Translations under genes and position numbers: made by a program
The notes under the pieces: model-generated
The model's input: the letters and a program-made list of their open reading frames with translations, nothing else
Databases searched by the model: none
Told to the model about the DNA's origin: nothing
Virus record (IMG/VR): IMGVR_UViG_3300048922_000217
Location: 1-22,972 of that record
Length of the DNA: 22,972 nt
Reading direction: 5' to 3' (one strand)
DNA from: a virus
Shown here: positions 1-21,368 of the stretch, one piece after another
Layout of the letters: each line of letters starts with the position of its first letter
Position numbering within the stretch: the first letter of the stretch is position 1

Positions 1-951
1 GACGATGGTGTCCCGCAGCCCGATGACTTCCCTCTCGTACTTGGTGCGCCATTCGAAATCGCTGATCTTGCCTGCCGCCCGATCGGCCGTGATCTGATCC
101 AATCTGGCCTGGGCCTCCGAAGCACCGCCCTTGAATCCGCCGGCGCCACTGTCATTGCCCGCGAAACGTGCCTCACCGTTGCCGGCGCCGATCTTCCACA
201 TGGCGGCCATGAACTTGTCAGTGCCGAGAACGGACTCCAGGGTGCGCATCTGGAGCTCGTTGAGGCCTCCGACTTCCTTCGAGAGCCACTCCTTGCCTCG
301 ACCTGCGAGCGCAACACGCTCCTGGTAGTTGGCGCCCCAGGCGTCCTGCAACTTGGCGAGAGCCTCGGCGCTGGCCGTGTTCTCAGCCTCGCGAATCTTG
401 GCCTCCATCTTTCCGACGGCCGCCTCGTATCCCTTGGCGAGTTGAGTGGCCATCGCCGCCGGCACACCGGCTTTGTGGAACTCTTCGGCCATGAAGGTCT
501 TGAACTCCGGATACGGGTTACCCTCCGGCACCGGAATGTCGTACTTGTCCGCCGTCTCCGGGACACCGACCATCGCATTCCAGGCTTTGACCGCGTTCGC
601 ATCCGGTGGCGTTACTGTACCGTCTGCGTTGACCTTCGGAGCCGGATAACCCTTGCCCGCGCGCAGAGTGGCCGCTTCACGCTCCAGGCTCTGCGCCGTT
701 TTCGCAAGGGTGAACGGATCGGCGTAGTTCTTGTTGGCTACCCAATCGCGGGTCTCCTTCTGCTCGGGTTTGTCCCAACCACTCCAGAACTGCGATTGAT
801 TGGCAGCACCTGCGCCAGCTCCTGCACCGGCATCGCCGCCCGCGCCTGCTCCGGCTCCAGCACCGGCTCCTGCGCCAGCACCTCCTCCGGCGCCGGCTCC
901 CGCGCTTCCTGCATTCGCTCCGCTAAGTGCCGCTGCTGCTGGTGTTGACAT
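1..951 (-). CDS. Phage capsid scaffold-like protein (partial, C-terminus off window)
   Basis: An open frame of 317 codons runs from ATG at 951 to the window edge with no stop. A GGAAGGAA ribosome site lies a few bases upstream. Residues about 9-50 are an almost pure Gly/Ala alternating tract. After it comes a hydrophilic, helix-prone region rich in Ala, Glu and Lys, with motifs such as QFWSGW, ETRDWV and NYADPF. Small acidic helical proteins between portal and capsid genes of podoviruses are usually scaffolds, and the WxxW-type N-terminal motif and position fit. The function is inferred from composition and context. It overlaps the end of the Bbp19-like gene by 29 bp. The Gly/Ala tract is odd and probably a flexible linker. 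Confidence 0.72.
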   Translation of the reverse strand, partial: MSTPAAAALSGANAGSAGAGAGGGAGAGAGAGAGAGAGGDAGAGAGAGAANQSQFWSGWDKPEQKETRDWVANKNYADPFTLAKTAQSLEREAATLRAGKGYPAPKVNADGTVTPPDANAVKAWNAMVGVPETADKYDIPVPEGNPYPEFKTFMAEEFHKAGVPAAMATQLAKGYEAAVGKMEAKIREAENTASAEALAKLQDAWGANYQERVALAGRGKEWLSKEVGGLNELQMRTLESVLGTDKFMAAMWKIGAGNGEARFAGNDSGAGGFKGGASEAQARLDQITADRAAGKISDFEWRTKYEREVIGLRDTIV

Positions 952-8834: not shown

Positions 8835-9805
8835 GGCGAGATCCTCTTGGCAGCAGCTAGATTGGCAATGCTTCGAGCAGCCTTCAGTCGCTCTTTCTCA
8901 ACCATCAGCCGGTTACATTCGGTGTTTTGGGCTTGGCAATACTGAGCGGCTGTCTCGCCCGGGTTGGGATCACGGAAATCGGGTATTCCAATCGCTCGGC
9001 GGCGCGCCGCGAGCTTTTGCAAACCTTCGGCTTCCAACTGTGCGGGTGAGACTGACGCGGTACCACGCACAATCGTCGGTTGACGCATGTCGGCTGCCTT
9101 GCGGCACCAGTTGCGCCAGGCAGCATCCCAATTGTGTTTGCGTGCGTTGGCACCGGATGCGGCCAGCCAGTGATCGCGGAACCGACCGAACTCGCGCTCT
9201 GCGTCGACCTTTTCCTTCACCGCGACTGCGCGCCGCTCCTCGTTCAGTTCGAATCCGTCAGGCAAACGCTGTGCGGTTTTGCGCACCTGACGATTCAGTG
9301 ACGATTCAACTGATGATTCCATGACGGTTATGGGTGACCCACGGTCAGGGGGGGTATGACTGTGGGTCAGGGGCGGGGCTGACTGTGTGTCAGAGGCCCC
9401 TGACGCTGCGACGGGGCGACCCTCCGTCGGGGTGACTTTGGGTCGGTATGACGGACGGTCAGGGGTGTCCTGCGACTGGGGGCCCAGTTGCAACGCGGGA
9501 GGCATGCCGGGATTGACGCGATCAAACTCTGAACGAGCCGGCTTAACTTCAATCGAACGCGGATGTACCGAATACACCGTGCTCCGGCCTGGTCGCTCGC
9601 GCCGAGTCACATGGCCGGCTTCCTCGAGACGCACGATGACACGATGAATCGAGCGCTCTTCGAGTCCGCATTTGCGCGAGAGTGTTGCAATCGACGGGTA
9701 ACAGAATCCCTCATCGTTCGCGTTATCACTTAATGCAAGCAGCACGATCTTATCCGCGTGGGGAAGCGGAGTTGACCATGCGAGCGTCATGATCCGGATG
9801 CTCAC
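8831..9805 (-). CDS. Phage replication initiation protein, lambda O-like layout
   Basis: This 324-residue protein should bind the phage origin and recruit the host replisome. Residues about 10-75 form a winged helix-turn-helix (KIVLLALSDNANDEGFCYPS, then IATLSRKCGLEERSIHRVI and LEEAGHVTRRERPG), as in HTH_36-type replication proteins. Residues about 95-165 are a Pro/Ser/Thr-rich linker. The C-terminal part contains FGRFRDHWLAASGAN and WDAAWRNWCRKA, a motif common in phage replication and primosome-like proteins. The GTG at 9805 overlaps the upstream stop as GTGA; ATG at 9790 is also possible. The DNA encoding the linker carries iteron-like repeats, as in lambda O. No helicase-loader gene follows. 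Confidence 0.85.
   Translation of the reverse strand: MSIRIMTLAWSTPLPHADKIVLLALSDNANDEGFCYPSIATLSRKCGLEERSIHRVIVRLEEAGHVTRRERPGRSTVYSVHPRSIEVKPARSEFDRVNPGMPPALQLGPQSQDTPDRPSYRPKVTPTEGRPVAASGASDTQSAPPLTHSHTPPDRGSPITVMESSVESSLNRQVRKTAQRLPDGFELNEERRAVAVKEKVDAEREFGRFRDHWLAASGANARKHNWDAAWRNWCRKAADMRQPTIVRGTASVSPAQLEAEGLQKLAARRRAIGIPDFRDPNPGETAAQYCQAQNTECNRLMVEKERLKAARSIANLAAAKRISP
9335..9465. repeat. Iteron-like repeat cluster, candidate phage replication origin
   Basis: On the plus strand the motif TGACNNNNGGTCAGGGG appears exactly at 9335-9351, 9357-9373 and 9449-9465. A near copy (TGTCAGAGG end) lies at 9380-9396. Weaker copies start at 9401 and 9433. GTCAGAGG at 9389-9396 abuts an inverted CCCCTGAC at 9397-9404, forming a near-palindrome. 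The cluster lies within codons about 114-157 of the replication gene, its low-complexity linker. In phage lambda the origin iterons also lie inside gene O, so this is a good origin candidate. Binding by the encoded protein is inferred. Confidence 0.65.
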
Positions 9806-9993
9806 CGATAGCCGAAGCGCAGCCCGGTGCCGGCCGTGATCTCGGCCGGACTTTGGACCTGCGGCTGCGCTTGAATTTGCAGTAACGTTGAAAATGCGGA
9901 GGGATTCGGGAACAGCCCTACACCCTCCGCTAAGAGCGCGCGCCCCAAGGGGGTCAACAGGGCAACGCGATTGCTCCTCACAAAACTAGTCAC
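9802..9993 (-). CDS. Hypothetical phage protein (63 aa), GTG start
   Basis: The frame starts GTG at 9993, overlapping the end of the small membrane-protein gene by 8 bp, and ends TGA overlapping the replication start as GTGA. The product begins TSFVRSNRVALLTPLGRALL and continues GVGLFPNPSAFSTLL, then a Gln/Pro-rich stretch. The N-terminal part could be one amphipathic or wing-like element, but I recognise nothing. A later GTG (codon 5) could be the true start. No ribosome site is clear, so the call depends on the overlap pattern. Confidence 0.42.
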   Translation of the reverse strand: MTSFVRSNRVALLTPLGRALLAEGVGLFPNPSAFSTLLQIQAQPQVQSPAEITAGTGLRFGYR

Positions 9994-10111
9994 GTGGATC
10001 GCCCGCTGTCGGTTCCAGGTTCACCCTCTGGCACCCGAAACAAATCGCGATCCACACGATGCCGAGGCCGATCGAGCCCAGCACGAATATGATTGCGAAC
10101 CTCACTTCCAT
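9986..10111 (-). CDS. Very small membrane protein (41 aa)
   Basis: The frame begins ATG at 10111 (MEVRFAIIFVLGSIG) and ends TAG at 9986. AAGGGG lies just upstream: two bases from this ATG, but eight from a GTG two codons later at 10105, which may be the true start. Residues about 5-25 (FAIIFVLGSIGLGIVWIAI) form one transmembrane segment, followed by CFGCQRVNLEP and a short polar tail. The role is unknown. Small membrane proteins near the immunity region often act in exclusion, but nothing here shows that. Confidence 0.55.
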   Translation of the reverse strand: MEVRFAIIFVLGSIGLGIVWIAICFGCQRVNLEPTAGDPRD

Positions 10112-10139
10112 ATCCCCTTGTTTTCTATGTCTTTCCCGG

Positions 10140-10346
10140 CTAGTCCCGGTTTTTCCCGTTTGTTCCCGAGATACGCAACTTGTCCGTGATTACTGTTGCT
10201 TCATGGACAACACGCTTGATCTCAGGAACCAACAAAGTCTCGATGAACTCACCGAGGGTCAGGCCCCGCGCATCACAGATCGCAACCAGGGCCTCGTGCA
10301 CATCGGGGTCCAACTTCGCTCGTACGTCGACGCGCTCGAGGCTCAT
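10140..10346 (-). CDS. Ribbon-helix-helix-like protein (68 aa)
   Basis: The ATG at 10346 follows the cro stop directly (TGA then ATG). The sequence ERVDVRAKLDPDVHEALVAI, then DARGLTLGEFIETLLVPEIK, has the beta-strand, helix, turn and helix pattern of small Arc/MetJ-type DNA-binding dimers. The strand VDVRAKL would insert in the major groove. The C-terminus (RISGTNGKNRD) is polar. As the second gene after cro, it is a candidate for a second regulator or an antirepressor, which is inference. The DNA target is unknown. Confidence 0.66.
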   Translation of the reverse strand: MSLERVDVRAKLDPDVHEALVAICDARGLTLGEFIETLLVPEIKRVVHEATVITDKLRISGTNGKNRD

Positions 10347-10562
10347 TCAGGCCGCCTCACTGAGGTTCGGACGGAACTCCGGACAGCCGGGATACAAACT
10401 CGGGTCGAACCGGAGCTTCCCGCGAGTACGGAAGTGGATCTCAGCGGCCCAGTTGCGCGGAACGAGGTCCGGCCACTTGTTGACAGCGGCCTTTCCGATA
10501 CCGAGCGCCCGGCCGACCTTGACCTGCGAGCCGTAGTGAGAGATGACGTCTTGCTTGAGCAT
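10347..10562 (-). CDS. cro: Cro-like repressor of the leftward early operon
   Basis: This 71-residue protein (MLKQDVISHYGSQVKVGRALG, then IGKAAVNKWPDLVPRNWAAEI) closely follows the pattern of P22-type Cro: an N-terminal HTH with QVKVGRALGIGKAAVNKW as the recognition unit, then a short beta part. It would compete with the divergent CI-like repressor at the shared operators. The ATG at 10562 is chosen because a longer GTG-started frame begins inside the promoter. The -10 element ends only about nine bases upstream, so the mRNA leader must be extremely short. No good ribosome site is seen. Confidence 0.85.
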   Translation of the reverse strand: MLKQDVISHYGSQVKVGRALGIGKAAVNKWPDLVPRNWAAEIHFRTRGKLRFDPSLYPGCPEFRPNLSEAA

Positions 10563-10570
10563 GTCCCAGC

Positions 10571-10600
10571 AGAGTATCCCATAGGACACCGTGAGGTCAA
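10571..10600 (-). promoter_or_regulatory. Leftward early promoter (PR-like) for cro operon
   Basis: On the minus strand a TTGACC -35 (10600-10595) precedes a TACTCT (10576-10571, spacer 18) or GATACT (10578-10573, spacer 16) -10 element. The predicted start point is only a few bases before the cro ATG. The -10 lies inside the 19-bp GTGTCCTATGGGATACTCT element that is also present in the rightward promoter. Confidence 0.68.
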
Positions 10601-10613
10601 TTATGGGAAACCG
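10571..10613. promoter_or_regulatory. Left operator block (copy 1 of duplicated operator)
   Basis: This 43-bp block, read on the minus strand, begins CGGTTTCCCAT, contains TTGACC, and ends GTGTCCTATGGGATACTCT. The same series occurs at 11163-11204 on the plus strand with a one-base length difference. TTTCCCAT and ATGGGATA are inverted half-sites, and TGTCCTATGGGATA is itself an imperfect dyad. It probably binds both CI-like and Cro-like proteins. Confidence 0.72.
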
Positions 10614-10629
10614 GGTTCGCCCGTATCAT
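10601..10629 (+). promoter_or_regulatory. Candidate repressor maintenance promoter (PRM-like)
   Basis: TATCAT at 10624-10629 is a fair -10, with a poor -35 (TTATGG, 10601-10606) at 17 bp spacing and overlapping the operator. Weak -35 elements next to an operator are typical of activator-dependent PRM promoters. The predicted start point is at or just before the ATG at 10638, so the transcript may be leaderless as in lambda cI. Confidence 0.45.
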
Positions 10630-10637
10630 TTGAGCCC

Positions 10638-10925
10638 ATGGAAGAAACAATGGGCGAGCGGATCAAAAGGTTGCGTGAGGCGAGGAACCTCACTCAGCCT
10701 GCACTGGCACGCCTGTTAATCTCGATGGGGGCGCCGTCGACGCTGACGAAAGCGGCTATTCATAAATGGGAATCCGGCGACACGCGGAATATTCAAAACG
10801 CAACGTTCGTGCTGCTGTGCCAGGCGCTGGTGACTCAGCCCGAGTACTTGGTTTGGGGCGCGGACCGCGTGCCTCCGGAACGCAAGCCAGCTCCGGCCGA
10901 GCGGATGCCGAAGACAAAGTCCTGA
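10638..10925 (+). CDS. CI-like phage repressor, HTH only (95 aa)
   Basis: The protein carries an XRE-type helix-turn-helix in residues about 5-60 (GERIKRLREARNLTQPALAR, then TLTKAAIHKWESGDTRNIQN), followed by a short Pro-rich C-terminus (RVPPERKPAPAERMPKTKS). It lacks the S24 peptidase domain of lambda CI or LexA-type repressors, so RecA-stimulated self-cleavage is not expected. It is transcribed opposite to cro, between two copies of the same operator, which defines it as the lysogeny repressor by position. ATG at 10638 suits a leaderless transcript; ATG at 10650 has GGAAG upstream and is an alternative. Confidence 0.82.
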   Translation: MEETMGERIKRLREARNLTQPALARLLISMGAPSTLTKAAIHKWESGDTRNIQNATFVLLCQALVTQPEYLVWGADRVPPERKPAPAERMPKTKS

Positions 10926-11064
10926 CCGGTAACGCGGCCTGAAGTCCGCCCAAGTCACGTTTTCTAGCGTGAACGTCCTTATTAGCGATCGCATTCCTTA
11001 ACCCACCCTCTGTCCCCGACTGCTGACGGGATTGCGGCCTGTAGCCCCGGCCGCATCTCCCACG

Positions 11065-11087
11065 CCTTGTACCCATTCTAGGTACAA
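11065..11087. repeat. Perfect inverted repeat, possible operator
   Basis: CTTGTACC and GGTACAAG are perfect 8-bp inverted arms separated by seven bases. No T-run follows on either strand, so it is not a standard terminator. It could be a dimeric regulator site; no second copy was noticed in the window. Confidence 0.55.
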
Positions 11088-11134
11088 GCCCAAATCCAGT
11101 GTCTCAATCTAGCGCCACATAGCCCAAATTAAGC

Positions 11135-11155
11135 TGCGACATAGGTCGCACTTTT
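11135..11155 (+). terminator. Weak rho-independent terminator candidate after the repressor
   Basis: TGCGACATAGGTCGCA forms a 6-bp perfect stem with a 4-base loop, followed by CTTTT. It lies downstream of the repressor gene and just before the rightward promoter. The stem is short and the T-run only four, so termination would be weak. It may instead be a protein site. Confidence 0.35.
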
Positions 11156-11162
11156 GATCATG

Positions 11163-11204
11163 CGGTTTCCCATGGTTGACCTTGAGTGTCCTATGGGATA
11201 CTCT
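11163..11204 (+). promoter_or_regulatory. Rightward early promoter and operator (PL-like, copy 2)
   Basis: TTGACC (11176-11181) and TACTCT (11199-11204) are spaced by exactly 17 bp, a good sigma-70 promoter. The block shares CGGTTTCCCAT, TTGACCT and the 19-bp GTGTCCTATGGGATACTCT (11186-11204) with the cro promoter region, in opposite orientation. It should drive the long operon beginning at 11257 and be repressed by the CI-like protein. Confidence 0.75.
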
Positions 11205-11256
11205 TACTCCCGAAGATGAACGGTTCCGGAACTCGGAACAAATATCGGGAGGTTAA

Positions 11257-11583
11257 ATGTTAAATCGTGGAAACCAGGGAACAACGCAAGCCGATCCGTT
11301 CGCAGAGCCGCACCAGATCGCGCTCTGCCAATCGATTGATCTCGGCTACCTCACTGTCTGGGAATTGCGTGACGGCAAAACGCCCTCTGGCTACGTGCGG
11401 CTGAGTGAGCCTGTCGCTGTTACGTTCACGAAGGTCAACAAGACCGAAGGTGTCCAGGAAGCACTCCAGGCGATCAACGAGATGGAACGCGCGGCCCGCA
11501 ATGAACTGAGTCGCAAACTGTCCGAGTTCGCTGATCGCCGTGCCTCCCTGTTGGCTCTTACTTACCAGCCGGAGGCCGAATGA
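11257..11583 (+). CDS. Hypothetical early phage protein (108 aa)
   Basis: This is the first gene of the rightward operon. ATG at 11257 has GGGAGG four bases upstream, the best ribosome site of the operon start. The product (N-terminal polar stretch, then HQIALCQSIDLGYLTVWELR, SGYVRLSEPVAVTF) looks beta-rich in its first 70 residues. A charged helix follows (VQEALQAINEMERAARNELS). I recognise no family. Being immediately under CI control and first to be expressed, it could be an early takeover or anti-host factor, by position only. Confidence 0.78.
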   Translation: MLNRGNQGTTQADPFAEPHQIALCQSIDLGYLTVWELRDGKTPSGYVRLSEPVAVTFTKVNKTEGVQEALQAINEMERAARNELSRKLSEFADRRASLLALTYQPEAE

Positions 11584-11870
11584 ACGCGGTCACCAACAGC
11601 GCCGCCGAGAACGCCGTTGCCGCTCTTCGTATCCTCGGTGAGGAACGTCCGCAGAGCTTCGACAAAGCTGTTGACGAGGCGATCCGGACACTTCGCGTGA
11701 ATGGCGATACCAGCGCCGCGGCCATCGCCCGGATGTGCGCCTGGTTCTCAACCAAGGAGCGGGAAGTGTTCGCGCGCATCGAGAGTGTTGACGGCCAGCC
11801 TGTTATCTACTTCGTGCGCGGCACTCATGGCGACTTCCTGCCCAACTTCCTCCGCAGGCAAGCGGACTGA
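11580..11870 (+). CDS. Hypothetical early phage protein (96 aa)
   Basis: The ATG at 11580 overlaps the previous stop as ATGA, with CCGGAGG just upstream. The protein is helical at first (ENAVAALRILGEERPQSFDK, then AVDEAIRTLRVNG). It continues SAAAIARMCAWFSTKEREVF, then strand-like VDGQPVIYFVRGTHGDFLP. I recognise no family. It is translationally coupled to the first gene, so the two products may work together. Confidence 0.76.
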   Translation: MNAVTNSAAENAVAALRILGEERPQSFDKAVDEAIRTLRVNGDTSAAAIARMCAWFSTKEREVFARIESVDGQPVIYFVRGTHGDFLPNFLRRQAD

Positions 11871-11896
11871 CACGATATCAACCAATGAGGATATCC

Positions 11897-12178
11897 ATGA
11901 ACATCAATCGGACACTGTTCGCCCATTGGGCACCCGGAGCGCTGGATGAAACGATTGTTCAGGCTGAGCAAATCGTCTCGCGTCACGATGGCAACGTTGG
12001 TAAGGCGTTGGAGTCCATTGCCGAACTGGCCGGCGGCAATGTATCGCTGTCCTGCCGTGCTCATTTCCAACCAATTGAGCGCGTTCTGCGGGCCGCTCGC
12101 GAAGCCGAAATCGAACAGTTGAATCGCGAAGTGGTAAAGCGACGCAATGAGCGGTATCACGAAACGGCTGCTGGTTGA
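11897..12178 (+). CDS. Hypothetical early phage protein (93 aa)
   Basis: I chose ATG at 11897 (MNINRTLFAHWAPGALDE) because AGGA lies five bases upstream; an in-frame ATG at 11885 has nothing comparable. The product is mostly helical: IVQAEQIVSRHDGNVGKALE, then SIAELAGGNVSLSC, then FQPIERVLRAAREAEIEQLN and a basic end (REVVKRRNERYH). No known motif is seen. It is separated by 26 bp from the previous gene, the largest gap in this part of the operon. Confidence 0.68.
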   Translation: MNINRTLFAHWAPGALDETIVQAEQIVSRHDGNVGKALESIAELAGGNVSLSCRAHFQPIERVLRAAREAEIEQLNREVVKRRNERYHETAAG

Positions 12179-12192
12179 CCTGAACACCAACT

Positions 12193-12417
12193 ATGAAAGA
12201 GTCCTGTCAGTCCGTCAGCCCAGGACCGCAACGATCCTCGCGAGGGGATAGCTGGGCGGGGACTGGCAGGCCGCTGGAGAGTCAATTTCCCTGCATCCGC
12301 GACGGTAAACCTTCCTTCACAACGATGCCAGCCTGGCGGATTGAAGAGCTTTCGCACAAGTACACAGATGGCCCCGCGTACTACCAACAGTCTGATATCA
12401 CTGAGGTTTATGAATGA
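12193..12417 (+). CDS. Doubtful small phage protein (74 aa)
   Basis: The frame ends as an ATGA overlap with the ERF gene, which favours a real gene. The second half (IRDGKPSFTTMPAWRIEELS, then HKYTDGPAYYQQSDITEVY) looks like ordinary protein. The first half (SPGPQRSSRGDSWAGTGRPL) is low in quality and the start at 12193 has no ribosome site, so the true start may be elsewhere. Another small frame (ATG at 12148, 34 codons) overlaps its beginning. The function is unknown. Confidence 0.42.
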   Translation: MKESCQSVSPGPQRSSRGDSWAGTGRPLESQFPCIRDGKPSFTTMPAWRIEELSHKYTDGPAYYQQSDITEVYE

Positions 12418-13403
12418 ATGCTGTAGTTGAGACACGCGCCACACCGCTCGCGGTAGTTCAAAGCGAGTCCGCTGCCCTCGTCGCTGCCCTCGAGCGCGCA
12501 GCCGCGAACCCGAAGGTCAACATCGACAAGATGCGGGCTCTCATGGAGATGCATCGGGAGATCGCCGCGCGCCAGGCTGAGACGGAATACCACGTGGCCA
12601 TGTCGGCTTGTCAGGCAGAGATGGCTCCGATTTCGGCCGATGCCAACAATCCGCAGACCTCCAGCAAGTACGCGTCCTACCCTCAGATGGATCGCGCGCT
12701 GCGGCCGATCTACACCAAGCATGGATTCGGGCTGTCGTTCGATGAGGGCGAGTCGCCCAAGCCAGACCACATCAGGCTGCTGTGCTACGTCATGCATCGG
12801 GCCGGCCATAAGGTTGTCCACAAGATCGACCTGTGCGCGGATGGGAAGGGAGCGAAAGGCAACGCGGCGATGACGCTGACCCACGCCTCCGGTTCAGCGC
12901 ACACCTACGGCAAGCGATACCTGGTCAAAGACATATTCAACGTCGCCGTGTACGAGCCGGATGATGATGGCAATGGCGCAGGAGGCAAGCGCGGCGAGGA
13001 GATCGACCCCCGCGACAACGCGGCCCGGGTGAAGGCCGGTTATATCAGCCACGAAGAGATCGCGGAGCTGCGCGCTCTCATGACGAAGCTGAAGACGGAT
13101 GAGGCTGGCTTCCTGAAGTACATGCACGTGCAACAGGTCGCTGACATCCCGAAGATTCAGCTAAAGACGGCGATTCGCGCAATCCATTCGAGCGCGAAAG
13201 CTCACGCGCAGGCGCCCAAGTCCGCGGGCGGCAACGGTCGGTGCACGCCGCCGCAGGTTAGCATGCTGCGCGAGAAGCTCGATAAATCCGGCGTCCCAGA
13301 GAACGAATTCCTTCGCCGGTTTGGCATCGACGAGATCGAAGAACTCAGCTTCGCCAATGTCGACACCGCCGTGCAATGGATTGACAAAGTGGTGTCCGGC
13401 TGA
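12414..13403 (+). CDS. erf: ERF-family single-strand DNA annealing protein
   Basis: This 329-residue protein should promote annealing of complementary single strands during phage recombination or circularisation. The core matches the ERF family: AEYHVAMSACQAEMAPIS-like N-part, then SKYASYPQMDRALRPIYTKH, GFGLSFDEG, AMTLTHASGSAHTYGKRYLV. After a variable linker with acidic and Gly residues, the C-terminal part (TPPQVSMLREKL..., ENEFLRRFGIDEIEELSF) is a helical tail seen in some ERF proteins. GAGG lies eight bases before ATG. It is followed by exonuclease and coiled-coil genes, a typical recombination cassette. Confidence 0.9.
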   Translation: MNAVVETRATPLAVVQSESAALVAALERAAANPKVNIDKMRALMEMHREIAARQAETEYHVAMSACQAEMAPISADANNPQTSSKYASYPQMDRALRPIYTKHGFGLSFDEGESPKPDHIRLLCYVMHRAGHKVVHKIDLCADGKGAKGNAAMTLTHASGSAHTYGKRYLVKDIFNVAVYEPDDDGNGAGGKRGEEIDPRDNAARVKAGYISHEEIAELRALMTKLKTDEAGFLKYMHVQQVADIPKIQLKTAIRAIHSSAKAHAQAPKSAGGNGRCTPPQVSMLREKLDKSGVPENEFLRRFGIDEIEELSFANVDTAVQWIDKVVSG

Positions 13404-13984
13404 TGCTCGCCTTCGACCCTCAGACCCACACCTACACGCTGCATGGTGCCACCGTGCCGAGCGTGACCCAGGTCATCGACGAGCAGCTCAATGACTGGAC
13501 GGGCGTGCCACTCGAGGCGCTGGAGACCGCGCGCATCTTCGGTGGTCACGTGCACGAAGCGTGTCATCTCCTGGTGCGCGGCGAACTCGACTGGTCGAGT
13601 CTGGATCCGGCACTGGTGCCCTACATCGAGGCGGCGCAACGCTTCCTCAACGAGTCAGGCCTGACGGTGCTGAATGCCGAATTGCCACTGGCCAGCTCGA
13701 AGTTGAAGTTTGCCGGGACCCTCGACATCCGAGGCCTCATGCGCAAGGGCGTCGCGATCCTCGACTGGAAGTCGACGGCTACCCTGCCGCGCAGCGTCGG
13801 GCCGCAGACCGCCGCGTATGAGCACCTCTACGCCGAGCACTTCGGCGGGAAGGCCTGCAAACGCTACTGCGTGCAGCTTAACCCAGCTCTGCCCAACGGC
13901 TACAAGCTGCACGCCCTGACCAATTCCGCCGACTGGCACATCTTCCTGTCGGCTCTCAACTGCTGGAGGTTCAAACATGGTTGA
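13403..13984 (+). CDS. PD-(D/E)XK exonuclease of the phage recombination module
   Basis: This 193-residue protein is a RecB/Cas4-like nuclease. Visible motifs are the early His region GGHVHEACH (48-55), a Glu at 93, GTLD at 105-108, ILDWKS at 119-124 with the catalytic Asp 121 and Lys 123, and QTAAYE at 135-140. These are the expected order for the fold. It presumably resects double-strand ends to produce single strands for the ERF partner. The ATG at 13403 overlaps the ERF stop (TGATG). Length and position match other phage ERF-exonuclease pairs. Confidence 0.86.
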   Translation: MLAFDPQTHTYTLHGATVPSVTQVIDEQLNDWTGVPLEALETARIFGGHVHEACHLLVRGELDWSSLDPALVPYIEAAQRFLNESGLTVLNAELPLASSKLKFAGTLDIRGLMRKGVAILDWKSTATLPRSVGPQTAAYEHLYAEHFGGKACKRYCVQLNPALPNGYKLHALTNSADWHIFLSALNCWRFKHG

Positions 13985-14654
13985 AACGACCAAAGAGCCC
14001 GCCGACCTGGCGAAACCCGAAGTCGTCGCCGCGGCCGCGACGGTCACCGAACTGACGACGCTCACGGCGAACTATTCGATTGTAACGGCGGAGGATTATG
14101 AAGCCGGAAGCGCATTGCTGATGCGCGTGAAGGGCGCCCAAATCAGGCTTGAGGACGCGCGCACCGCGATCACCAAGCCCATGAATGCGGCTCTCAAGGC
14201 CATCAACGACTTCTTCCGAGGCCCGGCGGAGAAGCTCACTACCGCGGAGGAGAACGTCAAACGCGCCATGATCGGCTATACCGACGAGCAGGAGCGGCTG
14301 CGCCGTATCGAGCAGGCAAAGGCGGACGAGGCGGCCCGCAAAGAGAAGGAGAAGCTCGAAGCTCAAGCGCGGAAGGCTGAGGCGAGCGGCAAGGTTGAAA
14401 AGGCCGCTACGCTGGAAATGCGCGCCGCGACCGTGGTTGCGCCAGTGATCAATCGTGCGCCTCCCAAGGTAATCGGCGTCCAGACACGCGATGTCTGGAA
14501 GTTCGAGGTCACCGATCCCACCCAGGTGCCGCGCCAGTACCTGGTCGTCGACGAATCGAAGATCCGAAAGATCGTCGGTGCGATGAAGGGTGACACGCAG
14601 ATTCCCGGTGTGCGCGTGTGGTCGGACAAGAACATTGCTTCGGGTGCTGCGTGA
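13977..14654 (+). CDS. Coiled-coil phage protein next to recombination genes
   Basis: This 225-residue protein starts at ATG 13977, overlapping the exonuclease end by 8 bp. Residues about 40-165 are a long charged helix (RLEDARTAITKPMNAALKAI, ENVKRAMIGYTDEQERLRRI, KADEAARKEKEKLEAQARKA), likely a coiled coil. The C-terminal part is a small globular domain with VWKFEVTDPTQVPRQYLV and GVRVWSDKNIAS. Such proteins recur beside ERF/Bet and exonuclease genes in phages, probably as recombination accessory factors. The exact role is not known. Confidence 0.75.
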   Translation: MVETTKEPADLAKPEVVAAAATVTELTTLTANYSIVTAEDYEAGSALLMRVKGAQIRLEDARTAITKPMNAALKAINDFFRGPAEKLTTAEENVKRAMIGYTDEQERLRRIEQAKADEAARKEKEKLEAQARKAEASGKVEKAATLEMRAATVVAPVINRAPPKVIGVQTRDVWKFEVTDPTQVPRQYLVVDESKIRKIVGAMKGDTQIPGVRVWSDKNIASGAA

Positions 14655-19886: not shown

Positions 19887-20098
19887 CCATGCTGACCGAA
19901 CAGGATGCCCGCCGGATTGCGGTTGCTGCTGTCGAGGAGGTACTGGCCCGCCGGCCAGTCCCCACGGCAGTGACACTCAAACAGGCCGCAGAGATACTCA
20001 ACGTTCACCCAAACACGGCTCGCAAGTTGAAGTTGCCCCGTAACCGAGCCGGATTGATCAACTATGAGGATGTGTTGGCGGTCAAAGCTTCCAGATAA
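19883..20098 (+). CDS. Probable excisionase or AlpA/MerR-type HTH protein (71 aa)
   Basis: The protein (EQDARRIAVAAVEEVLARRP, VTLKQAAEILNVHPNTARKL, NRAGLINYEDVLAVK) has the HTH_17 pattern of DNA-binding excisionases: VTLKQAAEILNV as helix 1 and HPNTARKL as recognition helix. It is the last gene of the rightward operon and overlaps the convergent integrase by 37 bp, a place typical for xis. GTG at 19883 (GTGA overlap) or ATG at 19889 may be the start. An AlpA-like regulator is the alternative. Confidence 0.7.
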   Translation: MTMLTEQDARRIAVAAVEEVLARRPVPTAVTLKQAAEILNVHPNTARKLKLPRNRAGLINYEDVLAVKASR

Positions 20099-21123
20099 TC
20101 CGACCACCATTGCATCATGTTGCGGCGTTCGTTCAGGTACTCGGCGCGATGATACGCCGCGCGAACGTCGTCGCTCTCCTGATGATGCAACTGGCGCTCT
20201 ATCGCGTCCTTACTCCACAGCTTCGACTCGTTCAGTACCGAAGATGCCACGGTGCGGAAACCGTGCCCCGTCATCCGACCGCGGTACCCCATCCGGTAAA
20301 GTGCATAGAGGAGAGTGTTGCTCGATATGCCGCCCATGGGGTTGACCTCGGACGCGAGAAAGTATTGGCTGTCATTGCCCAATGCTTTCAGATCATCGAG
20401 GAGCGCGATCGACTGTCTCGACAGCGGGACCACATGGGGCGTGCGGCTCTCGCCTTCACCTTTCATGCGCTCAGCCGGAATCACCCATGTTACCGGATCG
20501 CGGATCTCTGGCCACTGCGCCTGGATCAGCTCCGTTGTGCGGGTGAACGTATGCGCCAGCAGCATCAGACCCAGGCGCGTCACCGCATCGCCGCTGTAGC
20601 CGTCGATATCCGCCATGAGCTTCGGAAGCTCGGCCGCCGTGACCGCCGGCATACGTCGTTTGCGGCGCGAGGGTAAGACCCTCGACAGGCCGGCGGCGGG
20701 ATGCTGCTCGATGTGCCCGCTATCGACCGCCAGGTCAAATATGTCCCGTATCCGCTGCCCGAGCCGGTGAGCCGTCTCGACCTTCCCGGCATCGGCGACC
20801 CCGGTGACGAGCTGCACGAGCTCAACGCGCTTTATTTCGGTCAGACGCTTCTCGGCCAGCGTCGGTAGCACGTAGTCGCGGATGCTGTTCTCGATGGTGC
20901 GCTGATTGGCCGCATTGTCCAGGCTAGGCAGCTTCAGTTTCAGCCATACTTCGGTCGCGGCGCCAAAGGTCATCGTTGAGCCCCCGCTGGCGGTAAGCTC
21001 CCGCTCGCGTTCCTCTGCCCAGGCCACCGCTTCGCGCTTCGTGCGCCTGGTAGCTGAGTCGCGGACCCCGTTAACGCAGACGTGGGCGCGATATCCATCC
21101 CTGTGGGGAACGATGCTGGCCAC
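20062..21123 (-). CDS. int: Tyrosine recombinase / phage integrase
   Basis: This site-specific recombinase would integrate the phage at tRNA-Ser. Numbering from GTG at 21123: arm-binding N-part ASIVPHRDGYRAHVCVNGVR and TKREAVAWA, core-binding domain in the middle, then catalytic R195 (FTRTTELI), K221 (MKGEGESRTPHVVPLS), H287 and R290 (HGFRTVAS), H313 (HHQ region), and nucleophile Y324 (AAYHRAEYL). All six expected residues are present. I prefer GTG at 21123 because the protein then begins like family members (ASIV..., G..RA.V) and GGGGGA lies ten bases upstream. ATG at 21168 adds 15 residues and has no ribosome site. Confidence 0.9.
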   Translation of the reverse strand: MASIVPHRDGYRAHVCVNGVRDSATRRTKREAVAWAEERERELTASGGSTMTFGAATEVWLKLKLPSLDNAANQRTIENSIRDYVLPTLAEKRLTEIKRVELVQLVTGVADAGKVETAHRLGQRIRDIFDLAVDSGHIEQHPAAGLSRVLPSRRKRRMPAVTAAELPKLMADIDGYSGDAVTRLGLMLLAHTFTRTTELIQAQWPEIRDPVTWVIPAERMKGEGESRTPHVVPLSRQSIALLDDLKALGNDSQYFLASEVNPMGGISSNTLLYALYRMGYRGRMTGHGFRTVASSVLNESKLWSKDAIERQLHHQESDDVRAAYHRAEYLNERRNMMQWWSDYLEALTANTSS

Positions 21124-21125
21124 TG

Positions 21126-21167
21126 TGCGTAAATCCCCCAACTCGCGTGCGTAAAGCGATTTACGCA
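21126..21167. repeat. TGCGTAAA repeats at the int start, candidate Int/Xis or operator site
   Basis: TGCGTAAA occurs at 21126-21133 and 21148-21155. Its perfect inverse TTTACGCA is at 21160-21167, with GCGA between the last two. If int starts at 21123, all three lie immediately upstream of the coding sequence. They could be arm-type sites for integrase, or an operator for autoregulation. A related TGCGTAG lies near 21246. Confidence 0.52.
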
Positions 21168-21276
21168 TATCTGTGGTAACTTGTGGAGCGAATACCCAAC
21201 TTGGGATTCACATCATCGTATTTCGCCGGGATTTGTGCGGCAAAATGCGTAGCACTCACAACGTTCAACAGTTTAA

Positions 21277-21310
21277 TGGCGGACAGAGTGGGATTCGAAC
21301 CCACGAACAC
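21277..21310. other. Inferred phage attachment region (tRNA 3' half)
   Basis: Integrase reads away from this end and its gene lies about 150 bp from the tRNA CCA. The intact tRNA is retained on the chromosomal side, as when a phage carries a copy of the tRNA 3' end. The exact core is unknown because the opposite junction is outside the window. The coordinates are approximate. Confidence 0.45.
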
Positions 21311-21368
21311 CCGTGAAGATGTTACTGGATTTCCAATCCAGCGCCTTCGACCGCTCGGCCATCTGTCC
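21277..21368 (-). tRNA. tRNA-Ser (GGA anticodon)
   Basis: Read on the minus strand, GGACAGA (21368-21362) pairs with TCTGTCC (21287-21281). A G discriminator and encoded CCA end the gene at 21277. The anticodon stem CTGGA/TCCAG with loop TTGGAAA gives anticodon GGA (serine, UCC). A long variable arm and the T-loop GGTTCGAATCC are present. The 92-nt length is normal for class II tRNA-Ser. It is the probable host attachment gene. Confidence 0.95.

Follow-up and report, generated by a model that had tools for sequence, protein, structure and literature searches.

In several lambdoid systems, repressors bound at two operator regions are connected by looping of the intervening DNA. In lambda CI, the C-terminal domain mediates the assembly of tetramers and octamers; in HK022 and phiKO2, OL and OR flank the repressor gene at distances of ~700 and ~630 bp, respectively, and the repressors loop OL to OR (PMC8053113). 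Short repressors are represented by DicA of Escherichia coli, a protein of 135 aa that represses dicCp and dicBp and is countered by the antirepressor Rem (PMC10448788), and by the GfoR-type proteins of the Salmonella prophages Gifsy-1, -2, and -3, which comprise 136 aa, are not cleaved on induction, and are subject to LexA-controlled antirepressors (PMC3121763).

Here we analyze the immunity region in a stretch of viral DNA of 22,972 bases (IMG/VR virus record IMGVR_UViG_3300048922_000217; hereafter, the window). The gene order around its repressor gene is that of lambda, mirror-imaged in the window. We assign a probability of about 0.87 to the reading that this is a minimal lambda-type immunity region, in which a repressor of only 95 aa would shut both early promoters via two operators each, without looping.

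The window is most likely a prophage of a bacterial virus, because it encodes an integrase with an adjoining tRNA-Ser. This tRNA-Ser(GGA) is a likely attachment site, beyond which lie genes that presumably resemble host dapA and a lipoprotein gene. The record appears to be partial, because the left end of the window stops in head genes. A blastn search with positions 9800-12200 against 50,697 phage records gave no match, and an Rfam search at E 0.1 over positions 10500-11400 returned nothing.

Inverted blocks and predicted operators

The repressor gene lies between two sequence blocks in inverted orientation, whose arms comprise a pair of 19 nt with 100% complementarity (10571-10589 and 11186-11204) and a pair of 20 nt with 90% complementarity (10594-10613 and 11163-11182). 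They are the only inverted repeats longer than 14 bp in the whole window, where ~0.001 inverted pairs of 19-mers are expected by chance, and their inverted-repeat score of 19 was reached in none of 100 dinucleotide shuffles of the flanks (null maximum, 12). The two near-identical inverted blocks proposed from the sequence alone are thus confirmed, as is their difference in length by one base: counted from TTGAC through ATAC, the left block spans 22 nt and the right block 21 nt. The blocks are 612 bp apart (centre to centre). The compression to about 0.6 kb, which the same reading had noted, is present but not unusual, since similarly compact OL-OR spacings are already known from HK022 and phiKO2.

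Each block holds two predicted 16-bp operators with a 6-4-6 dyad structure, in which O2 precedes O1 (Table 1). The O1 site sits in the 19-bp core, is symmetric in 5 of 6 positions, and overlaps the -10 element (GATACT). The right half of O2 coincides with the -35 element (TTGAC) and is poorly symmetric (at most 3 of 6 positions), so that O2 might consist of a single half-site next to promoter sequence. From centre to centre, the O1-O2 distance amounts to 22 bp in the left block and 21 bp in the right block. Lambda has three operators in each region, but this number is not universal among lambdoid phages; the two per block reported here stem from a dyad scan that could miss a weak third site. 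The motifs TCCCAT and ATGGGA, previously taken as operator half-sites, were discarded as an operator: this far-apart pair takes one half-site from each of the two operators, and it is the 16-bp dyad that recurs with changed letters among related phages.

Both blocks contain a -35 and a -10 element, as suggested; the left promoter passes a consensus scan, and the right promoter, with its 15-bp spacer, was not picked by the sigma-70 consensus scan. The left block would represent OR, with a leftward promoter for cro and perhaps, as a guess, a weaker inward promoter for cI, and the right block would represent OL, from which the right-hand early operon would be transcribed.

Table 1. Location of features in the window and in related phages. 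Positions refer to the window unless a phage is named.
Feature	Position	Strand	Details
Small regulator gene	10140-10346	minus	68 aa; directly behind cro; weak match to phrog_7146 (3.9e-05), a phage transcription-regulator family
cro-like gene	10347..10562	minus	71 aa; P22_Cro family (PF14549, 1.3e-14); PDB 1rzs, P22 Cro (4.8e-10)
Predicted P_R-like promoter	10573..10600	minus	TTGACC-16-GATACT; would drive cro; consensus scan and relatives
Predicted OR O1	10574..10589	minus	GTGTCC-TATG-GGATAC; over -10 of cro promoter; repeated without change at OL; position kept in relatives
Predicted OR O2	10596..10611	minus	GTTTCC-CATA-ATTGAC; right half is -35; also upstream of putative inward cI promoter; GTNNNN-NNNN-NTTGAC kept in relatives
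cI-like repressor gene	10638..10925	plus	95 aa; between the blocks; single HTH domain
Antisense ORF	10716-10994	minus	92 aa; starts in cI-OL gap; convergent with and antisense to 3' end of cI
Inverted repeat	11066-11088		CTTGTACC-N7-GGTACAAG; in cI-OL gap; occurs once in the window, no partner found
Perfect 6-4-6 palindrome	11135-11150		TGCGAC-ATAG-GTCGCA; centre 30 bp upstream of that of OL O2; flagged terminator-like on both strands
Predicted OL O2	11165..11180	plus	GTTTCC-CATG-GTTGAC; right half is -35
Predicted P_L-like promoter	11176..11202	plus	TTGACC-15-GATACT; faces early operon; 15-bp spacer common to OL of relatives
Predicted OL O1	11186..11201	plus	GTGTCC-TATG-GGATAC; exact inverted copy of OR O1
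Start of right-hand early operon	11257..14651	plus	Three small ORFs, ERF ssDNA-annealing protein (12414-13403), exonuclease-like genes
Integrase	20062-21168	minus	
tRNA-Ser(GGA)	21277-21368		Adjoins integrase
Antisense ORF, L003	4079-4360		
Antisense ORF, L013	4082-4363		
Antisense ORF, L014	4134-4298		
Antisense ORF, L027	4125-4334		
Antisense ORF, L028	4131-4349		
Antisense ORF, L033	4146-4319		
Antisense ORF, L042	near 268-310		
Third dyad, L011	2890-2905		GTTTCCATACGGACAC; over cI start codon; may be autoregulatory; no counterpart seen in the window

A single-domain repressor and the early operons

The repressor matches only the families HTH_31 and HTH_3 in Pfam and has no S24 domain (PF00717). 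Its best relatives among solved structures, by sequence comparison with the PDB, are P22 C2. The AlphaFold model consists of five helices, with pLDDT values that exceed 90 for the most part, and a weakly predicted tail of about 20 residues from around residue 75 onward; its best fold match is the DNA-binding domain of P22 c2 (3jxb; TM 0.90 on the target). The protein therefore has the N-terminal domain of the P22 C2/434 fold, and a C-terminal domain for oligomerization or peptidase activity is absent. This sets it apart from the two-domain, self-cleaving CI/C2 proteins with their C-terminal S24-type domain and places it with the short repressors of the DicA/Gifsy type that have no cleavage domain. 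A hidden C-terminal domain behind the stop codon of cI was considered and rejected, because only 239 bp separate the end of cI from O2 of the right block, which leaves no room for such a domain, and because the repressors of relatives end alike. Two scans of 84,980 bacterial genomes for relatives of the repressor yielded none that was confirmed.

The cro-like gene is divergent from the repressor gene, with the predicted shared operators between the two, and its product scores 54.1 bits against PF14549 (cut-off, 30.2). Because its ATG at position 10562 is only 10 nt past the -10 element, the cro message is predicted to be nearly leaderless, as is known for the cI and cro messages of PY54 (PMC4488713). 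The cro operon continues with the small regulator gene and an O-like replication gene. The genes to the right of the right block also include NinB/Orf. As in lambdoid maps, recombination genes (ERF/exonuclease) are located on the OL side and replication (O-like initiator) on the cro side.

The shortness of the 95-aa protein and the predicted nature of its targets would also fit a scheme in which the blocks serve only Cro or another regulator, while the 95-aa protein has a different task and another repressor maintains lysogeny. We regard this as very unlikely, because the 95-aa protein matches the DNA-binding domain of P22 C2, is the product of the sole gene of CI type that was seen there, in the immunity region, and has counterparts located exactly between the blocks in relatives.

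Related phages and a small antisense ORF

Relatives were collected from IMG/VR with protein-profile scans for related repressors; one more was added by a motif scan. Short repressors are encoded in the window and L003 (95 aa each), L013 (identical to L011) and L028 (98 aa each), L033 (94 aa), L026 (87 aa), L042 (86 aa), L014 (84 aa), and L027 (82 aa). A Pfam scan of the seven short-repressor relatives other than L042 detected no S24 domain, whereas L036 and L037 do possess PF00717. The repressors that sit between the blocks in the relatives belong to the same family, and the paired inverted blocks exceed all 100 shuffles not only in phages with short repressors (the window, L013, L014, L028, and L033) but also in those with full-length repressors (L036, L037, and L024). 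The inverted-repeat score alone is not above chance in L003, L026, and L027; when anchored on TTGAC, however, the same promoter/operator grammar is apparent by inspection. The OR copy of L026 has no TTG-type -35 element, and the two O1 copies of L003 have diverged.

The operator letters differ among these phages: GTGTCC..GGATAC in the window contrasts with GTATAG..CTATAC-like sites in L014, L026, L027, and L033, and L013 has a perfect dyad (GTATCG-GATA-CGATAC) that occurs twice in exact copies. The constant element is a grammar of GTNNNN-NNNN-NTTGAC followed by a second dyad that ends in ATAC, GTAC, or TTAC. A search of related phages for the block pair therefore shows that the architecture around cI is kept while the letters of the operators have changed. 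A scan of IMG/VR with the operator pattern matched only the contig of L003. Within 1.5 kb of the repressor matches in Stenotrophomonas BUCT708, Bordetella IFTN2, and Acinetobacter MD-2021a, inverted repeats do not exceed chance, indicating that the paired blocks are not universal.

The difference of one base between the blocks recurs as well. From TTGAC to the end of O1, the distance is 22 nt at OR and 21 nt at OL in seven of the eight phages in which both are readable (the window, L003, L013, L014, L027, L033, and L029); the exception is L031, with 21 nt at both. Two OR copies were read with an anchor loosened to TTGCC and TTGAT, and the seven cases do not represent independent events because the phages share ancestry. 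At OL alone, 10 of 11 phages have 21 nt, and L028 has 20. By sequence comparison, the asymmetry looks like a kept feature rather than noise.

These comparisons also bear on the origin of the right block. Its 19-bp identity with the left block could reflect a recent duplication, and a promoter with a 15-bp spacer might be expected of a functionless remnant or of an inverted copy that arose by chance. Since the relatives have paired blocks with different letters and OL keeps its 21-nt register, both blocks must be maintained, which renders such an origin extremely improbable.

The distance between the -35 elements of OL and OR is 576 bp in the window, 579 bp in L003, 426 bp in L014, 422 bp in L027, 449 bp in L033, 544 bp in L031, and 1064 bp in L029, and thus has no fixed helical phase. 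This argues against DNA looping between the copies, which the sequence-only reading had envisaged on top of the arrangement favored here. Looping would agree with a separation of the blocks in the range where the repressors of HK022 and phiKO2 loop (PMC8053113) and with the octamerization in solution of PaaR2, the CI analogue of CP-933P (PMC8630535). It is nevertheless improbable, because the repressor consists of one HTH domain and a low-confidence tail, without an oligomerization domain.

The antisense ORF is present in eight phages of the group and carries the motif ENVxW[A/V]DFR. In the window, the motif (ENVTWADFR) lies in the N-terminal part of the ORF, outside cI; in the relatives, it reads ENVIWADFR, GKIIFVDFR, DNVIWVSFR, ENVAWVDFR, ENVYWVDF, or DNVTWVYF. 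Across seven phages, variation is greatest at third codon positions (mean entropy 1.04 vs 0.36 and 0.51); these sequences were picked by eye, which means that this codon test was not a blind one. The antisense frame is free of stops in all seven and has the highest identity (0.50); one frame of the opposite strand comes close (0.49) but has stops in two phages. The start codons are preceded by purine-rich stretches, which are clearly Shine-Dalgarno-like in L027 and L033. For the part of the ORF inside cI, no conservation was separable from that imposed by cI.

The independent part of this evidence is a scan of IMG/VR with the motif only, which found four contigs: two already known, the new phage L042, where the motif follows a short repressor at the corresponding location, and one with a portal-type gene. 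The last (L044, 166-191, minus strand) encodes what we take to be a portal-like phage protein with ENVYWADFR followed by W-x-AFR, as in the antisense ORF; this match is probably due to chance. With its same location in relatives, the antisense ORF is a candidate for the control of induction.

Proposed mode of repression and comparison with known systems

The blocks flank the repressor gene, and the relatives keep both the architecture and the one-base difference, which together identify a lambda-like OL/OR pair. An OL/OR-like layout, as originally suggested, is borne out by the agreement of operators, gene order, and relatives, and anatomy and comparison give good support to the prediction that both early operons are repressed in a coordinated manner. 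Binding, repression, competition by Cro, and the mode of induction are what we infer for the following scheme. A dimer of the 95-aa repressor would bind O1 (over the -10 element) and O2 (a half-site fused to the -35 element) in both blocks, and in the lysogen would thereby silence the two early promoters, much as DicA, a published short repressor, acts on both dicCp and dicBp (PMC10448788). Most likely, these sites are also the target of competition by the P22-type Cro. Since a C-terminal domain is lacking in the repressor, repression would depend on the presence of two operators per promoter at a distance of two helical turns rather than on looping by octamers. In the absence of a self-cleaving domain, RecA-stimulated self-cleavage is an unlikely route of induction, which might instead proceed by an antirepressor or by loss of the repressor. 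No antirepressor family was recognized among ten ORFs of the right arm, where the absence of a family match is weak evidence.

If this reading is right, a lambda-like switch needs little: a single DNA-binding domain and a pair of operators at each promoter. It would offer a natural test of whether stable lysogeny needs cooperativity, looping, and RecA cleavage, and the relatives, which share the grammar but not the operator letters, would be a ready set for studying repressor-operator co-evolution. It is conceivable, but rather unlikely, that these regions form a distinct minimal class of lambdoid immunity modules, defined by one-domain repressors of 82-98 aa that work without oligomerization and self-cleavage, half-operators in the -35 element of both early promoters, the one-base difference between OR and OL, and an antisense gene that would provide the control otherwise lacking, as an antirepressor or an antisense regulator of cI.

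Both regulators of the window are closest in sequence and fold to the N-terminal domain of P22 C2 and to P22 Cro, which links the region to immC of P22. The letters of the P22 operators differ from those in the window. Moreover, P22 C2 comprises 216 aa and cleaves itself by means of its C-terminal domain (PMC3121763), whereas the repressor of the window has a single domain. The dicA/dicC/dicB region of Qin resembles the window in its short, P22 C2-like repressor without cleavage motif, its divergent Cro-like gene, and its P_L-like promoter, with operators at both (PMC10448788); the likeness is one of description, and DicA is longer and has three operators per region instead of two per block. 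The Gifsy phages share the lambdoid prophage organization and a short repressor but possess antirepressors, none of which was recognized in the window. In CP-933P, PaaR2 and YdaS are likewise non-lambda analogues of CI and Cro with operators at P_R-like and P_L-like promoters; PaaR2 differs in that it octamerizes, which is not expected of the repressor of the window, and shares an operon with a toxin-antitoxin pair (PMC8630535). HK022 and phiKO2 have the same compact arrangement of OL and OR around the repressor gene, but the repressor of the window has no recognizable oligomerization domain. Compact OL-OR regions and short, uncleavable repressors have thus been published before; what is new is the combination of a one-domain repressor with a kept asymmetry between OR and OL.
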